30,569 nucleotides of DNA from a virus: positions 1 through 30,569 of the IMG/VR virus record IMGVR_UViG_3300002132_000146; one strand, given 5' to 3'. Positions 2,601-12,960 of this stretch are shown here, one piece after another. The stretch's first letter is position 1, and each line of letters starts with the position of its first letter. The notes below the pieces were generated by a model, which saw only the letters and a list, made by a program, of their open reading frames with translations, was not told the DNA's origin and made no database searches. The position numbers were made by a program, and so were the translations under genes.

Positions 2601-4787
2601 CTATTTATAATTTTTAAACCCAGACCTAGTTGGTCTATCACTATTTCTTGATCTATTTTGTCCAATATTTTTAAACGGACTATACTTTAATTTACTGAAA
2701 TTATCTGACTTTACCAAAGAATTTTCTTCAGATTCTTGCCTTTTAGAATAACCTCTATTGGATTGTTGTATTTTAACAAAAGCTATTAGTGCCCCAAATG
2801 CCACCAGTCTATCTACGTTAAGACCTGGGTAATATGCTAGCATTTCTTTAATAAGCATTGGATCAGGTATTCTTTCTACTCCTAATGTTTGATTTATTAC
2901 AACACCGTTTATATCTGTTTCTTCATTTATTACTTCTCTTAGAAATTCAATAGCATAAGAAATTAAATGACTTTTAAATAGTATACCGGTATTCTTCCAT
3001 CCATATTCTTGATATACTGTTCTATTAGCACCAAGATCTTTAAGAAATAAAATTTGTTGTTTAGGTACTAAATATCTTTGTTTTTTTCTAGCAATCATAT
3101 GCTGGATAAAAAGAGATATGTTATTCTCTACAATAGTCCAAGCATTATACCATTCAATAATTAGTTCAAGTCTTTCGTGTGTTTTATTAATATCATCAAA
3201 CCTTCCACACCAAGCAGCAACAATTTTATCTTTTTCTAAAAACTGTTCAATATCTCCAGATACAGTAGTTCTAGTTACTTCAGTAGCATTCTTATAAACA
3301 AATATGCTACATAAAGAATCTGATGTAGTTGTCTTTCCTTCTGACACAGGATCAATAGATGCATAATATGCCCCAAACCCTGGACTTTTTACAGGTCTTT
3401 CCCAAACAACAATAGTACCTGTTTTATCTGTTTGTTTTTTATCTACAGGAAATCTAGTGATTGGTAATTTATTTGTTCTCTTAGCAAAGATTCCTTTTTC
3501 ATCTCTATCTAATTCAATGAGTTCATAAGGATATTCTTTTTCCTCAATTCTTTTTTGTTGTCTGCTAAGTATCCCTTGAGGAAACACGGATGCTTTTCTA
3601 TATGCAAATGCTTCAGCAATATTAAGTGGTTTTTGGGATATTCTTAATTGGAATTGTTCACTGTTTAATTCATTTTTCCATCTATCTCTTTCTATAATGA
3701 TTGCACTAACAGCATCTTCAACTAAAGAATTGCCGTAATCATCAATATAAGGGGGCATAGACCACTGTTCAGGAATAAATAACCCTGCCATACCAATAGT
3801 ACCATCAGCATCTATTAAATCAGTTTCTACAGCATATATGTCATTTGCCACAGGATTTGTAATCATATCTTTTAAAGGATTACATTGTTCTAAATCTCCC
3901 ACTGATCCTGCTGCTATAAACATACCTGTAGTCATCATACCAGAAGACATAGCAGGACGTAAATATTCATATGTTTCAGACATCTTAGGAGCAATGCCTG
4001 CTTCCTCATGAAAGAAATATGTACAAGGTCCACCTACTCCAGTTGTGGCATTTTTTTCAAATGAACCACCTTGTATTTTAGATTTAAGTCCTCTAGCAGT
4101 TTTTCTATTGCCTATTCTTACTTCAATTTGTTGTTGCCATAAAAGGACCTTTTCTGGATTGCTTGGTCTATACCATGCAGTGTGTTCATTAAGAAAAATT
4201 TTATATTCATCTAAAAACTTCCAAGATCCTTTATCATTAATAAAATCTTTTAATGATGCACCAATTTTACAAATACTACCTTCTTCAAACCAATAGGTAT
4301 TTATAAGTTTACCCATATGAAAATATGAAGATGCAATCTGACGTTTTTTAAGTATTGCAGAATGTTTATTATTTAACTCAGCTAATAATTCATAAAGAGC
4401 CATATGATATTGGGCATCTCTTACTTTAGCAAAGCCATACTTTTTTTCTTCTTTATCAAAGATTGGTAAAAAGTTTAACCACATATAATAATCTCTACTT
4501 AAATACCAAGACTTATTATCATCTTTATATATAACACCTTCTCTACATTTATTTTTTTGATCTTCCCAATATGTAGTAAAGTCTTTAGATCTAAAAGGTT
4601 TATTACAGTAAAACCCTTGAGTATTAAAAGTTTGAGCTTCTTTATTAAATTCTTGAGCTAAACTATTAAATCCATATTTGCCAGGTTCACTAAATATACT
4701 TAGTATATAATCAACAAATTGTTTTTTAGTTTCAAAATCCGTGGTTATCCACTCACCATTATAATATGTTGGAACGGATTTATACAT
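2601..4787 (-). CDS. terL: Terminase large subunit (TerL)
   Basis: ATP-driven DNA packaging motor and headful nuclease, acting at the portal. The 728-residue protein shows both halves of a TerL. The ATPase has a non-classical Walker A (LKKRQIASSYF, about 146-156), a Walker B with catalytic Glu (YFFHEEAG, about 257-264) and a coupling motif GSVGD near 294. The RNase H-like nuclease has an acidic triad plausibly at D479 (ASIDP), E554 (IVENN) and D659 (NVDRL). The Walker A of the KxRQxxxS type is common in phages with large terminases. Its start overlaps the end of the GroES-like gene by 8 bases, so translation is likely coupled. No small terminase is recognisable nearby. Confidence 0.93.
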   Translation of the reverse strand: MYKSVPTYYNGEWITTDFETKKQFVDYILSIFSEPGKYGFNSLAQEFNKEAQTFNTQGFYCNKPFRSKDFTTYWEDQKNKCREGVIYKDDNKSWYLSRDYYMWLNFLPIFDKEEKKYGFAKVRDAQYHMALYELLAELNNKHSAILKKRQIASSYFHMGKLINTYWFEEGSICKIGASLKDFINDKGSWKFLDEYKIFLNEHTAWYRPSNPEKVLLWQQQIEVRIGNRKTARGLKSKIQGGSFEKNATTGVGGPCTYFFHEEAGIAPKMSETYEYLRPAMSSGMMTTGMFIAAGSVGDLEQCNPLKDMITNPVANDIYAVETDLIDADGTIGMAGLFIPEQWSMPPYIDDYGNSLVEDAVSAIIIERDRWKNELNSEQFQLRISQKPLNIAEAFAYRKASVFPQGILSRQQKRIEEKEYPYELIELDRDEKGIFAKRTNKLPITRFPVDKKQTDKTGTIVVWERPVKSPGFGAYYASIDPVSEGKTTTSDSLCSIFVYKNATEVTRTTVSGDIEQFLEKDKIVAAWCGRFDDINKTHERLELIIEWYNAWTIVENNISLFIQHMIARKKQRYLVPKQQILFLKDLGANRTVYQEYGWKNTGILFKSHLISYAIEFLREVINEETDINGVVINQTLGVERIPDPMLIKEMLAYYPGLNVDRLVAFGALIAFVKIQQSNRGYSKRQESEENSLVKSDNFSKLKYSPFKNIGQNRSRNSDRPTRSGFKNYK

Positions 4788-11343: not shown

Positions 11344-11691
11344 ATGAATGTATTCTTCAGAAAAGTACAGATTAATCAGAACACAGGCTCAGCCGTGATT
11401 CAATGTACGTCAAATCCTATCACCAACAAGGTGACCACACTTGCTGGTGAGCAAGTAGCTACAAGTTCTATGCAGAACATTGTATTTGGAAATTTATCTC
11501 TTAAAGACCCTGAAACTAATCAGGTGATGAGAGCTAATCATCCAACTATCCAGAGACTAATGATAGCATTAGAACCTGGACAAGAAATGCCTGGCTATAG
11601 ATTCTCAAAGAATCCATGCATAGACATGAAGACTGGTGAGGAAACTAATATGTTCTGGGTGGAAGCCTATGACGTAGATAGCCCTGAGTAA
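11344..11691 (+). CDS. Hypothetical early protein (115 aa)
   Basis: Not recognised. A soluble, beta-rich protein starting MNVFFRKVQINQNTGSAVIQ, with a central VFGNLSLKDPETNQVMRANH and an end of WVEAYDVDSPE. It is the first plus-strand gene after the divergent region and is followed 11 bases later by a strong terminator, so it forms a one-gene unit that is probably expressed early and highly. Codon use (more C- and G-ending codons than neighbours) is compatible with high expression. Function unknown. Confidence 0.8.
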   Translation: MNVFFRKVQINQNTGSAVIQCTSNPITNKVTTLAGEQVATSSMQNIVFGNLSLKDPETNQVMRANHPTIQRLMIALEPGQEMPGYRFSKNPCIDMKTGEETNMFWVEAYDVDSPE

Positions 11692-11702
11692 CATCAGAAC
11701 AA

Positions 11703-11728
11703 GGGAGTGTGTAATAGCACTCCCTTTA
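11703..11728 (+). terminator. Intrinsic terminator 1 (UGUAAUAG loop)
   Basis: Perfect 7-bp stem GGGAGTG (11703-11709) with CACTCCC (11718-11724), loop TGTAATAG, followed by TTTATT. It ends the 115-residue gene. Its loop matches those of two further terminators downstream. Confidence 0.85.
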
Positions 11729-11733
11729 TTATA

Positions 11734-11993
11734 TACTCTCATCCAATTGCAGGTGGTAAACATAGATGATTTACTTCTAACTATAGCTGTCACTGAAAAG
11801 TGTAGATGTTTGCAAAACAGCATGATTTAAACAAAACAAGGGTTGCAACCTTGTGAGAGTACGACAACTATGGGGGAATGTTTTATTAATAACATTACTG
11901 GTGAAGCCATAGGGTCTATATATTTCAATTATGTAGGTGTTGGTACCAGAATCCAACTAATTATAGGTGTGTGTAACAGCACACCTTTTTTTT
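11734..11993 (+). ncRNA. Candidate structured RNA 1
   Basis: No gene fits here, but the plus-strand transcript can form nested helices. A closing stem pairs 11734-11741 (TACTCTCA) with 11854-11861 (TGAGAGTA). Inside are GTAAA/TTTAC (11756-11760/11770-11774), GCTGT/ACAGC (11786-11790/11817-11821) enclosing a GAAA-capped CACT/AGTG hairpin (11791-11802), and the palindrome GGTTGCAACC (11841-11850). A second domain has CTATGG/CCATAG (11868-11873/11907-11912) enclosing AATGTT/AACATT (11877-11882/11891-11896). The element ends in a strong terminator at 11965-11993. I infer a structured untranslated RNA. Covariation is untested. A leader for the 76-residue gene is the alternative. Confidence 0.5.
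11965..11993 (+). terminator. Intrinsic terminator 2 (UGUAACAG loop)
   Basis: Perfect 7-bp stem AGGTGTG (11965-11971) with CACACCT (11980-11986), loop TGTAACAG, then a run of eight T including the stem end. Preceded by CAACTAATTATAGG (11954-11967), a 14-base string that is repeated before terminator 3. Confidence 0.88.
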
Positions 11994-12054
11994 AAATATT
12001 AACCAGAACTCTGTAATTTTAGTTATGGTTGTTAGAAAATAAATAAAGAAAGAA

Positions 12055-12285
12055 ATGGTAAAAATAATAAACCTATTAAAAAAAGAACCTATTCAACTAA
12101 TTCATTTAGTTGATACTGATTCAGAAACACTAACTGGAAAGTTTCTTGGTATAAGACATTGGGATACTGCAGAATTAGTAGCAACAGATGTTAATGGCTT
12201 TGATGTCATAACTTTAACCAGAGATGGTAAAAAGTTTTTAGCATTAGGCTATTGGAATGAGGGAGTTGTAGAAACTCCTTTTTAA
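12055..12285 (+). CDS. Small hypothetical protein (76 aa)
   Basis: Not recognised. A small, probably beta-barrel-like protein: VKIINLLKKEPIQLIHLVDT at the start, then TGKFLGIRHWDTAELVATDV and a terminal YWNEGVVETPF. Its start follows an A/G-rich leader (AAATAAAGAAAGAA), typical of this phage. It lies alone between two candidate structured RNAs: its upstream neighbour is terminator 2, and downstream lies the 11-bp closing stem of RNA 2a. A link between protein and RNAs, such as an RNA-binding role, is possible but speculative. Confidence 0.7.
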   Translation: MVKIINLLKKEPIQLIHLVDTDSETLTGKFLGIRHWDTAELVATDVNGFDVITLTRDGKKFLALGYWNEGVVETPF

Positions 12286-12295
12286 TAAACAAACT

Positions 12296-12478
12296 AATAG
12301 TACTGTAACCTAACAATAAAGATATCCAAAAAAGATTAGGACAATTCTAATAAATTGTCACTAATACTTAGAATATTACCTCAACTATAGATAAGGGGTA
12401 ATAAGCTCATATCAACGTTAATCAACTTCTTTGGTCATTCCAGAAATGTTGTTAGGATAAAACAACAGTACTATTTTT
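12296..12478 (+). ncRNA. Candidate structured RNA 2a with 11-bp closing stem
   Basis: A stretch of 183 bases without a gene. A perfect 11-bp helix pairs 12296-12306 (AATAGTACTGT) with 12465-12475 (ACAGTACTATT), and a T run follows at once (12474-12478), as at the end of a terminated RNA. Stacked inside is a second perfect helix, CCTAAC/GTTAGG (12309-12314/12451-12456). Further hairpins are GACAATT/AATTGTC (12340-12346/12353-12359), TAATA/TATTA (12362-12366/12374-12378), CCTC/GGGG (12379-12382/12395-12398, one G-U) and CATT/AATG (12436-12439/12445-12448). Such nested pairing suggests a compact folded RNA. It does not match any riboswitch or RNA family I can recall. Not tested by covariation. 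Confidence 0.55.
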
Positions 12479-12802
12479 ACTAATGCACCACAACTTATTT
12501 CCCAAGGATAAGCAGTTGTAATAGGGGTGATAAGTAGATATGTATATTGTATTGGAAAGCTTAAAGTTAAACTGGTCGGACAGTAAACTTTAGAAAATTA
12601 TGCTACCTGCAAATATGAAATCTTCTACACACTTAAGCTATTACAACTGAGTGCAGAGGGATTGTGTAATACCTGAATAGGTAACAAATAAAAGGAAAGT
12701 AGGAAAACAAAAGGCAATACCATATTAGAGTATGTAAGAACCTTTTTGAAGTATCTTTCTTATTACAACTAATTATAGGGGGTGTGTAAAAGCACCCTTT
12801 TT
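12479..12802 (+). ncRNA. Candidate structured RNA 2b (hairpin-rich, ends in terminator 3)
   Basis: No gene is visible. The strand can form a long irregular hairpin at 12486-12529 (CACC/GGTG, ACAA/TTGT, CTTAT/ATAAG), a strong hairpin at 12562-12592 (TAAAGTT/AACTTTA and ACTG/CAGT, loop GTCGGA) and a short ACCT-GAAT-AGGT hairpin near 12673. It ends in terminator 3. It may be part of the same large RNA as 2a (about 500 bases together), a separate RNA, or an untranslated trailer. It is weaker than 2a because no single long closing stem was found. Confidence 0.35.
12780..12802 (+). terminator. Intrinsic terminator 3 (UGUAAAAG loop)
   Basis: Stem GGGTG (12780-12784) with CACCC (12793-12797), loop TGTAAAAG, then TTTTT. 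Preceded by CAACTAATTATAGG at 12766-12779, identical to the string before terminator 2, so the two 3' ends look like copies of one element. Confidence 0.82.
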
Positions 12803-12960
12803 GTTACTTCACATTGTTACTTCACAATTCTTTGATGTTCTTTCTGACATTTGTTACTTTCTTTCTCTCTGCTCTCCTACTTCCTCTCCTCTGCTCCCCA
12901 ACTAATGTACGCAGCAACTAAATATTTAAATATTAACTGCATCAGTGAGCTTTGTTACTT
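12801..12960 (+). repeat. TTGTTACTT repeats and polypyrimidine tract
   Basis: Two perfect tandem copies of the 13-mer TTGTTACTTCACA lie at 12801-12826. The core TTGTTACTT recurs at 12851-12859 and 12952-12960, giving four copies. Between them, 12861-12899 is 36 of 39 pyrimidines. No gene is credible here. Short repeats plus a strand-biased tract fit a protein-binding or replication-start region, but this is inference. Confidence 0.5.

Follow-up and report, generated by a model that had tools for sequence, protein, structure and literature searches.

A predicted pseudoknotted RNA frame with a variable arm in a terminator-bounded cassette of a virus record

The stretch at positions 11734-11993 of the window, by which we mean the entire 30,569-base virus record analysed here, raises the question of whether a segment of viral DNA with no evident gene encodes a structured RNA, and if so, what that RNA might do. 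Genes in the window lie on the minus strand as far as about 11,323 and on the plus strand thereafter, and the stretch lies close to this switch, as the original prediction had it. Among 50,697 phage records, 133 match the large terminase (2601-4787, minus strand); the best matches, with an identity of about 25 %, are in crAss-like phages and further ones in phages from Flavobacterium, Cellulophaga and Bacteroides, which suggests that the window belongs to a phage of Bacteroidota. That the stretch is free of genes is borne out: on its plus strand no ORF reaches 60 aa, nor is it filled by any plausible gene, the antisense strand carrying a mechanically called ORF of 72 aa (11605-11823, minus strand) that also overlaps the neighbouring 115-aa gene. 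The features of the region are as follows.

11344-11691, plus strand: 115-aa gene, preceding the element at 11734-11993
11701-11726, plus strand: T1, upstream terminator hairpin with loop UGUAAUAG, 8 nt 5' of the element
11734-11741, plus strand: beta, 5' strand of stem P1, UACUCUCA, predicted to pair with 11854-11861; compensated changes in relatives
11747-11751, plus strand: beta, J1/2, UUGCA, predicted to form a pseudoknot with the P3 loop; variants with compensation in L112, L266 and L441
11754-11836, plus strand: beta, variable arm, including GCTGT/ACAGC and the GAAA-capped hairpin (11786-11821); sequence and length differ between relatives
11837-11853, plus strand: beta, P3 hairpin CAAGG-GUUGCAA-CCUUG, with UGCAA of the loop (11844-11848) in the predicted pseudoknot
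11854-11861, plus strand: beta, 3' strand of P1, UGAGAGUA; compensated changes in relatives
11866-11914, plus strand: zeta, closing stem ACTATGGGGG ... GGTGAAGCCATAGGG enclosing a variable arm (the AATGTT/AACATT hairpin in this copy)
11916-11957, plus strand: two hairpins, CUAUAUA/UAUGUAG (11916-11936) and GUUGG/CCAAC (11939-11957)
11965-11993, plus strand: T2, downstream terminator hairpin and T-run, loop UGUAACAG (hairpin part 11965-11986)
12055-12285, plus strand: 76-aa gene, following the element
12484-12660, plus strand: gamma, the frame within 'RNA 2a', comprising UGCACCA, a P2 hairpin of loop UUCCCAAGG, a P3 that bears the variable arm, and the end ...GAGUGCAGAGGG
12777-12800, plus strand: T3, terminator hairpin with loop UGUAAAAG, closing the cassette of the 76-aa gene and gamma

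The first domain, beta, is a predicted pseudoknotted frame in which an 8-bp P1 is stacked on a 5-bp P3 hairpin whose loop pairs with J1/2. Its closing stem was part of the original prediction and can be read directly from the sequence (TACTCTCA at 11734-11741 with TGAGAGTA at 11854-11861), as can the other pairings proposed there: GCTGT (11786-11790) with ACAGC (11817-11821), the enclosed CACT (11791-11794), GAAA (11795-11798) and AGTG (11799-11802), CTATGG (11868-11873) with CCATAG (11907-11912), a stem kept in relatives, and AATGTT (11877-11882) with AACATT (11891-11896), together with the terminal hairpin at 11965-11986 and its T-run. The proposal of a gene-free, structured RNA with a terminator at its end holds good, but the GAAA tetraloop hairpin cannot be its defining feature, since it sits within the variable arm and is common to no relative compared; we dropped it as a conserved feature because it is absent from L002, L015 and L018, and it is absent too from the further relatives listed. 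Missing from that account were the CAAGG/CCTTG hairpin with its loop GUUGCAA, the predicted pseudoknot of this loop with UUGCA at 11747-11751, and the design of frame plus variable arm that is common to other phages. Folding energy was dropped as evidence for the element, given a value of -61.4 kcal/mol with a z-score of -0.88, 36 of 200 shuffled sequences folding as well.

How widely is this frame distributed? The 3' end of beta, TGCAACCTTGTRAGAGT, was found by a pattern scan in at least 119 stretches of IMG/VR viral contigs. Among the matches listed, 102 of 106 distinct 3' ends have the 5' motif no more than 210 nt away, compared with 3.3 % of random positions; two of the other four run off the end of the locus and two (L124 and L141) are without the 5' motif. 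Beta is present in 20 of 28 records, usually once per record and twice in two of them, and it varies in size from 65 to 200 nt with a single junction. The ends of the first domain are common to L002, L018 and L015 and the middle differs, and relatives keep both the closing stem and the P3 hairpin CAAGG/CCTTG, with J1/2 as UUGCA or, in a short form, GCA. Directly 5' of beta in L091 (823-880), L108 (248-304), L163, L168 and L185 there is a short conserved element, CCACAAGGTTTCAGGCATAACC...GCAGGGGTTGACTTGTGG.

The evidence for a conserved fold comes from covariation. A script found 100 elements among the matches listed; alignment A3 comprises 70 of them, the remaining 30, mostly near-duplicates, having been excluded by eye. 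Of its 1180 cells 99.8 % are paired, and double-change cells number 21 against 3.7 in shuffles, with none of 500 shuffles as high. Conservation of the 3' arm in A3 was discounted as evidence, as it was this sequence that had served to fetch the loci. In the P1 3' strand the fetching pattern had left just two columns free, 228 and 234, and both covary (UA 53, AU 14, GC 2 and one mismatch; CG 64, UA 5 and UG 1). Because the rest of that strand was fixed by the fetch, a second, complete scan left P1 free and fixed J1/2 and P3 only, yielding 96 stretches. The comparison with relatives suggested in the original prediction favours the stem here, with at least six of the eight P1 pairs retained in 64 of 69 distinct elements and P1 broken in the other five. 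Counted as distinct combinations of P1 arms, 22 of 26 keep at least six of eight pairs, and 86.5 % of P1 cells are paired over the 26 compared with 74.4 % after re-pairing, a level reached in none of 2000 shuffles. P1 is broken in four of the 26 distinct pairs, and as three of these retain an intact UACUCUCA, P1 pairing alone does not explain the persistence of this strand.

Loci gathered without the beta pattern point the same way. When a model was run over 87 sources, of which 63 were the loci listed for the pattern of a second frame, gamma, beta was found in seven of the 63 (L228, L230, L232, L236, L241, L251 and L254). Divergent members come from loci that the beta pattern had not fetched: in L251 P1 is wholly replaced yet complementary (UGUUCCCG/CGGGAACA), and in L254 P3 reads CAAGA/UCUUG, a compensated change. 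P3 changes are compensated in L228 as well. L232, L236 and L241 have inserts after P3, with P1 imperfect in L236 and L241, and all three keep UACUCUCA at the 5' side though the insert spoils or moves its partner, hinting that this strand has another role.

The length of the P3 loop goes with the form of J1/2, and the putative pseudoknot shows paired substitutions. All ten elements with a P3 loop of 5 nt have the long form of J1/2, and all 40 with the short form have a 7-nt loop, one of them being given an extra base by another script. The partners change together in L112 and L266 (UUGUA with AUUACAG), and the beta-like element of L441 pairs CCCA with AUGGGAA; in other variant P3 loops, for example those of L122 and L230, the match to J1/2 is less clear. 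On these sequence comparisons it is well supported that beta is an RNA fold conserved through compensated changes.

For the second domain the case is of a different kind. Zeta, as ACAACTATGGGGG...GTGAAGCCATAGGG, lies 3' of beta in L002 and L018 with the same ends as in the window; in L109/L093 it follows a beta-like end, with a different arm and then a hairpin and T-run, and in L173 beta is followed by a related zeta 5' half ended by the locus boundary. The closing stem is invariant in the few copies available, so that its support lies in conservation with arm replacement and not in covariation; two scripts that looked for zeta with an altered stem yielded nothing of use, and as neither recovered the window copy by its stem test, this outcome does not count as evidence of absence. 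The two hairpins at 11916-11957 recur nearly identical in L002 and L018 and are predicted in these two and in the window.

In the window the unit formed by beta and zeta lies between terminator hairpins. Hairpins with loop UGUAANAG followed by a T-run number exactly three on the plus strand of the window (11701, 11965 and 12777) and none on the minus strand, and these (T1, T2 and T3) bound two cassettes, one with the element alone and the other with the 76-aa gene and RNA 2a. Terminators stand on both sides of the unit in the window and in L002, and a terminator-like hairpin with a T-run, read by eye, follows beta-zeta in L109 and L018. In L001, which is about 92 % identical on both flanks, a 114-aa ORF replaces the whole region, and among 30 sequences examined beta is present in this slot in three (the window, L002 and L015). 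The beta-zeta unit, as predicted here, occupies a cassette slot between terminator hairpins within a rightward gene region. Terminator hairpins of the window, L001, L015 and L018 have the loop UGUAANAG in common and different stems, and mark the ends of exchanged cassettes.

Searches of PHROG, Pfam and PADLOC with the 76-aa protein gave no match, and its single-sequence structure model was useless (pLDDT 49). The 115-aa protein (11344-11691) matches no family; an AlphaFold2 model of it (pLDDT 86) bears only a weak likeness to OB folds of the SSB/PriB type (best Foldseek E 0.095). PADLOC applied to eight neighbours in the window gave no toxin-antitoxin match, and one gene had weak winged-helix hits.

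Beta is not the only frame of its kind. The original prediction paired the element with RNA 2a, and this second structured element does lie beyond the 76-residue gene (12055-12285), with a folding-energy z-score of -4.20 over 12286-12805. Its frame, gamma, has a 3' end found in at least 120 stretches and is present in 16 of 28 records. Among the matches listed, 105 elements have the 5' motif, 88 of these 105 carry the P2 loop UUCCCAAGG (one base being left free), the 14 distinct P2 stems are 97.1 % paired compared with 66.7 % after re-pairing, and 33 further 3' matches are without the 5' motif. Gamma is, by these counts, a second widespread frame with a predicted, covarying hairpin and a variable arm. 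A third, tRNA-like frame has an AGTCAGG acceptor, a D-arm GTGGCGGAATTGGTAGACGC and a T-arm ACAGGTTCGAATCCTGT, with a variable arm in place of the anticodon arm; examples begin at 9390 in L134, 12981 in L262, 11743 in L098 and 10332 in L114. Its arms are mostly 23-119 nt, and among the at least 112 distinct elements listed, eight have a near-canonical anticodon arm. ARAGORN labels some of these frames tRNA-Leu, a caution for users of tRNA finders. The tRNA-like frame was found in none of 25 records (including L001 and L005, both without beta), and beta, by exact pattern, in none of 31 records with the tRNA-like frame; loci L098, L114, L129 and L134 hold both. The two frames occur mostly in different phages.

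What changes from copy to copy is the arm. A set of 97 beta arms falls into 54 families, 35 of them singletons, and the largest family (n=9) is folded, with changes on both sides in 5 of 15 pairs. Some arms are common to different frames (gamma in L274/L204 with the tRNA-like frame in L078; beta in L094 with gamma in L235), and this sharing is rare, with three pairs at E 1e-6 and none at that value in a minus-strand control. One module, GTTTGCCT...ATGGACATCAGGCT...ATAACCAAC, stands alone with its own closing stem in L015 (5345-5410) and L062, and forms the beta arm in L138 and L165. Arms compared with E. coli rRNA had no resemblance beyond the reverse-strand control. Mimicry of tRNA by the arms was considered and rejected, a comparison with 104 distinct phage tRNAs giving weak hits (best E 0.001, versus 0.06 for the reverse-strand control).

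The structure of the element is well supported; for its function we infer, tentatively and as a best guess that falls short of an even chance, a trans-acting scaffold RNA that presents its variable arm to host factors. The product would be a phage RNA of about 230 nt in which beta (stem and pseudoknot) and then zeta (stem), each with a variable arm, are followed by an intrinsic terminator, and it would be set free as a stable RNA in its own right. The frame would serve as a nuclease-resistant scaffold with its ends sealed in the stacked stem and locked by the pseudoknot, and the arm would be the working part, with a protein or RNA of the host as its binding partner; it might, for instance, inhibit a factor of host defence or regulation or act as a decoy for one. 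An arm of this sort would explain why arms diversify on unchanging frames, fast change of the arm on a constant frame suggesting that it meets a changing partner. The free-standing position between terminators, in a slot that holds a protein gene in a close relative, also favours a trans-acting product. Counting against it is T1, which lies directly 5' of the element and leaves no room within the cassette for a promoter of its own.

Nearly as likely is a cis-acting leader or intercistronic element of an mRNA, in which the frame would mark or protect a 5' end or guide processing and the arm would be a tolerated insertion of little function; frames seem to be co-transcribed with a gene in most other phages, and it is this that lends the reading its weight. 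Of 124 beta motifs 100 fall between mechanically called ORFs, and where an intergenic beta has a called downstream ORF the two share a strand in 82 of 91 cases. A terminator precedes the next same-strand ORF in only 7 of 101 cases for beta and 7 of 141 for gamma, so that most beta elements elsewhere are probably co-transcribed with the downstream gene, and gamma often lies about 45-75 nt 5' of a start codon. A cis role is harder to reconcile with the terminator or terminator-like site after beta-zeta in the window, L002, L109 and L018, with the length of the gaps that hold beta or gamma frames (median 446 nt for 169 gaps, versus 72 nt for 2819 other gaps), and with the folding and compensated pairs of the commonest arm family.

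A new self-cleaving ribozyme, with the unpaired bases of J1/2 and L3 as active site and the arm as a peripheral stem, seems unlikely. The compact pseudoknotted junction and its strongly conserved unpaired bases would suit such a molecule, and Hatchet ribozymes do occur in L091 (46-208, in the same island as beta) and L201 (5635-5767, near gamma); however, a wider search found Hatchet in one of 50 records, no Rfam ribozyme matches beta, and peripheral stems would not be expected to be so diverse. Improbable, too, is a ligand-sensing, riboswitch-like aptamer with the conserved J1/2-L3 core as binding site, for which a conserved core with a variable stem 5' of same-strand genes might speak, but there is no consistent regulated gene (beta and gamma are not accompanied by any one gene family, the commonest downstream family accounting for nine beta elements), no expression platform is seen, and the window copy lies between two terminators.

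The trans-acting scaffold reading can be extended, more doubtfully, to an RNA display system, in which a few scaffolds (beta, gamma, zeta and the tRNA-like frame) would mount interchangeable, structured and fast-evolving arms, each acting on a host or rival factor; these phages would then stock an arsenal of RNA effectors in the cassettes that other phages use for accessory proteins. If this is so, a phage RNA family with at least 119 occurrences on contigs of uncultivated viruses lies outside Rfam and the phage records searched, offering natural RNA parts that fold stably and are ready for use, and the arms would be a handle on host factors worth attacking with RNA.

Comparison with known RNAs leaves beta on its own. 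With the covariance models of Rfam 15 at gathering cut-offs the window matches are three tRNAs, all outside the element; a permissive scan of 11600-12900 gave matches far below every cut-off, and on the loci of 11 relatives only tRNA and Hatchet were found, beta matching no family. The stack of P1 on a 5-bp hairpin whose 7-nt loop touches the 5' junction recalls the acceptor, T-arm and elbow of tRNA. Neither ARAGORN nor Rfam gives a tRNA hit at 11734-11862, however, and beta differs from tRNA in having no anticodon arm and no T-loop consensus, GUUGCAA being a loop that we take not to be a T-loop; related loci hold the tRNA-like frame with its variable arms. In L091 the Hatchet ribozyme (RF02678) sits in a phage RNA island of the kind that houses beta, and neither the window element nor beta matches its model, any cleavage being putative. 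A ToxI-like type III toxin-antitoxin RNA, which would have tandem pseudoknot repeats beside a toxin gene, is not indicated, there being no one accompanying gene family and no PADLOC toxin-antitoxin match among the eight window neighbours, and exoribonuclease-resistant RNAs, which stall a 5'-3' exonuclease, are similar only in the pseudoknotted three-way topology of gamma. In the phage collection the window region had no match, and a beta and a gamma element had chance-level matches only; the sole match in a bacterial genome (Desulforhopalus, L294) was taken as chance because the 5' frame motif is absent. We know of no other natural RNA class that combines a constant scaffold with a variable arm. 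A literature search, covering the accessible parts of its sources, yielded no description of these RNAs. On sequence grounds beta seems to represent a new viral RNA class. In its derivation it is akin to STAXI, with its repeated pseudoknots, and the other candidate RNAs in the accessible part of Weinberg et al. 2010 (PMC2864571), which likewise came from comparative genomics and to which no sequence or Rfam relation was found. The nearest kind are GOLLD and ROOL, phage RNAs to which a function has yet to be assigned, yet beta is a separate family. By the accessible part of PMC12286853 these are large RNAs of phages and prophages, ROOL of 659 nt and GOLLD often of more than 800 nt, several times longer and with different folds; the present element has no Rfam match and, in place of a multi-domain RNA of 600-800 nt, comprises about 230 nt with a swappable arm.
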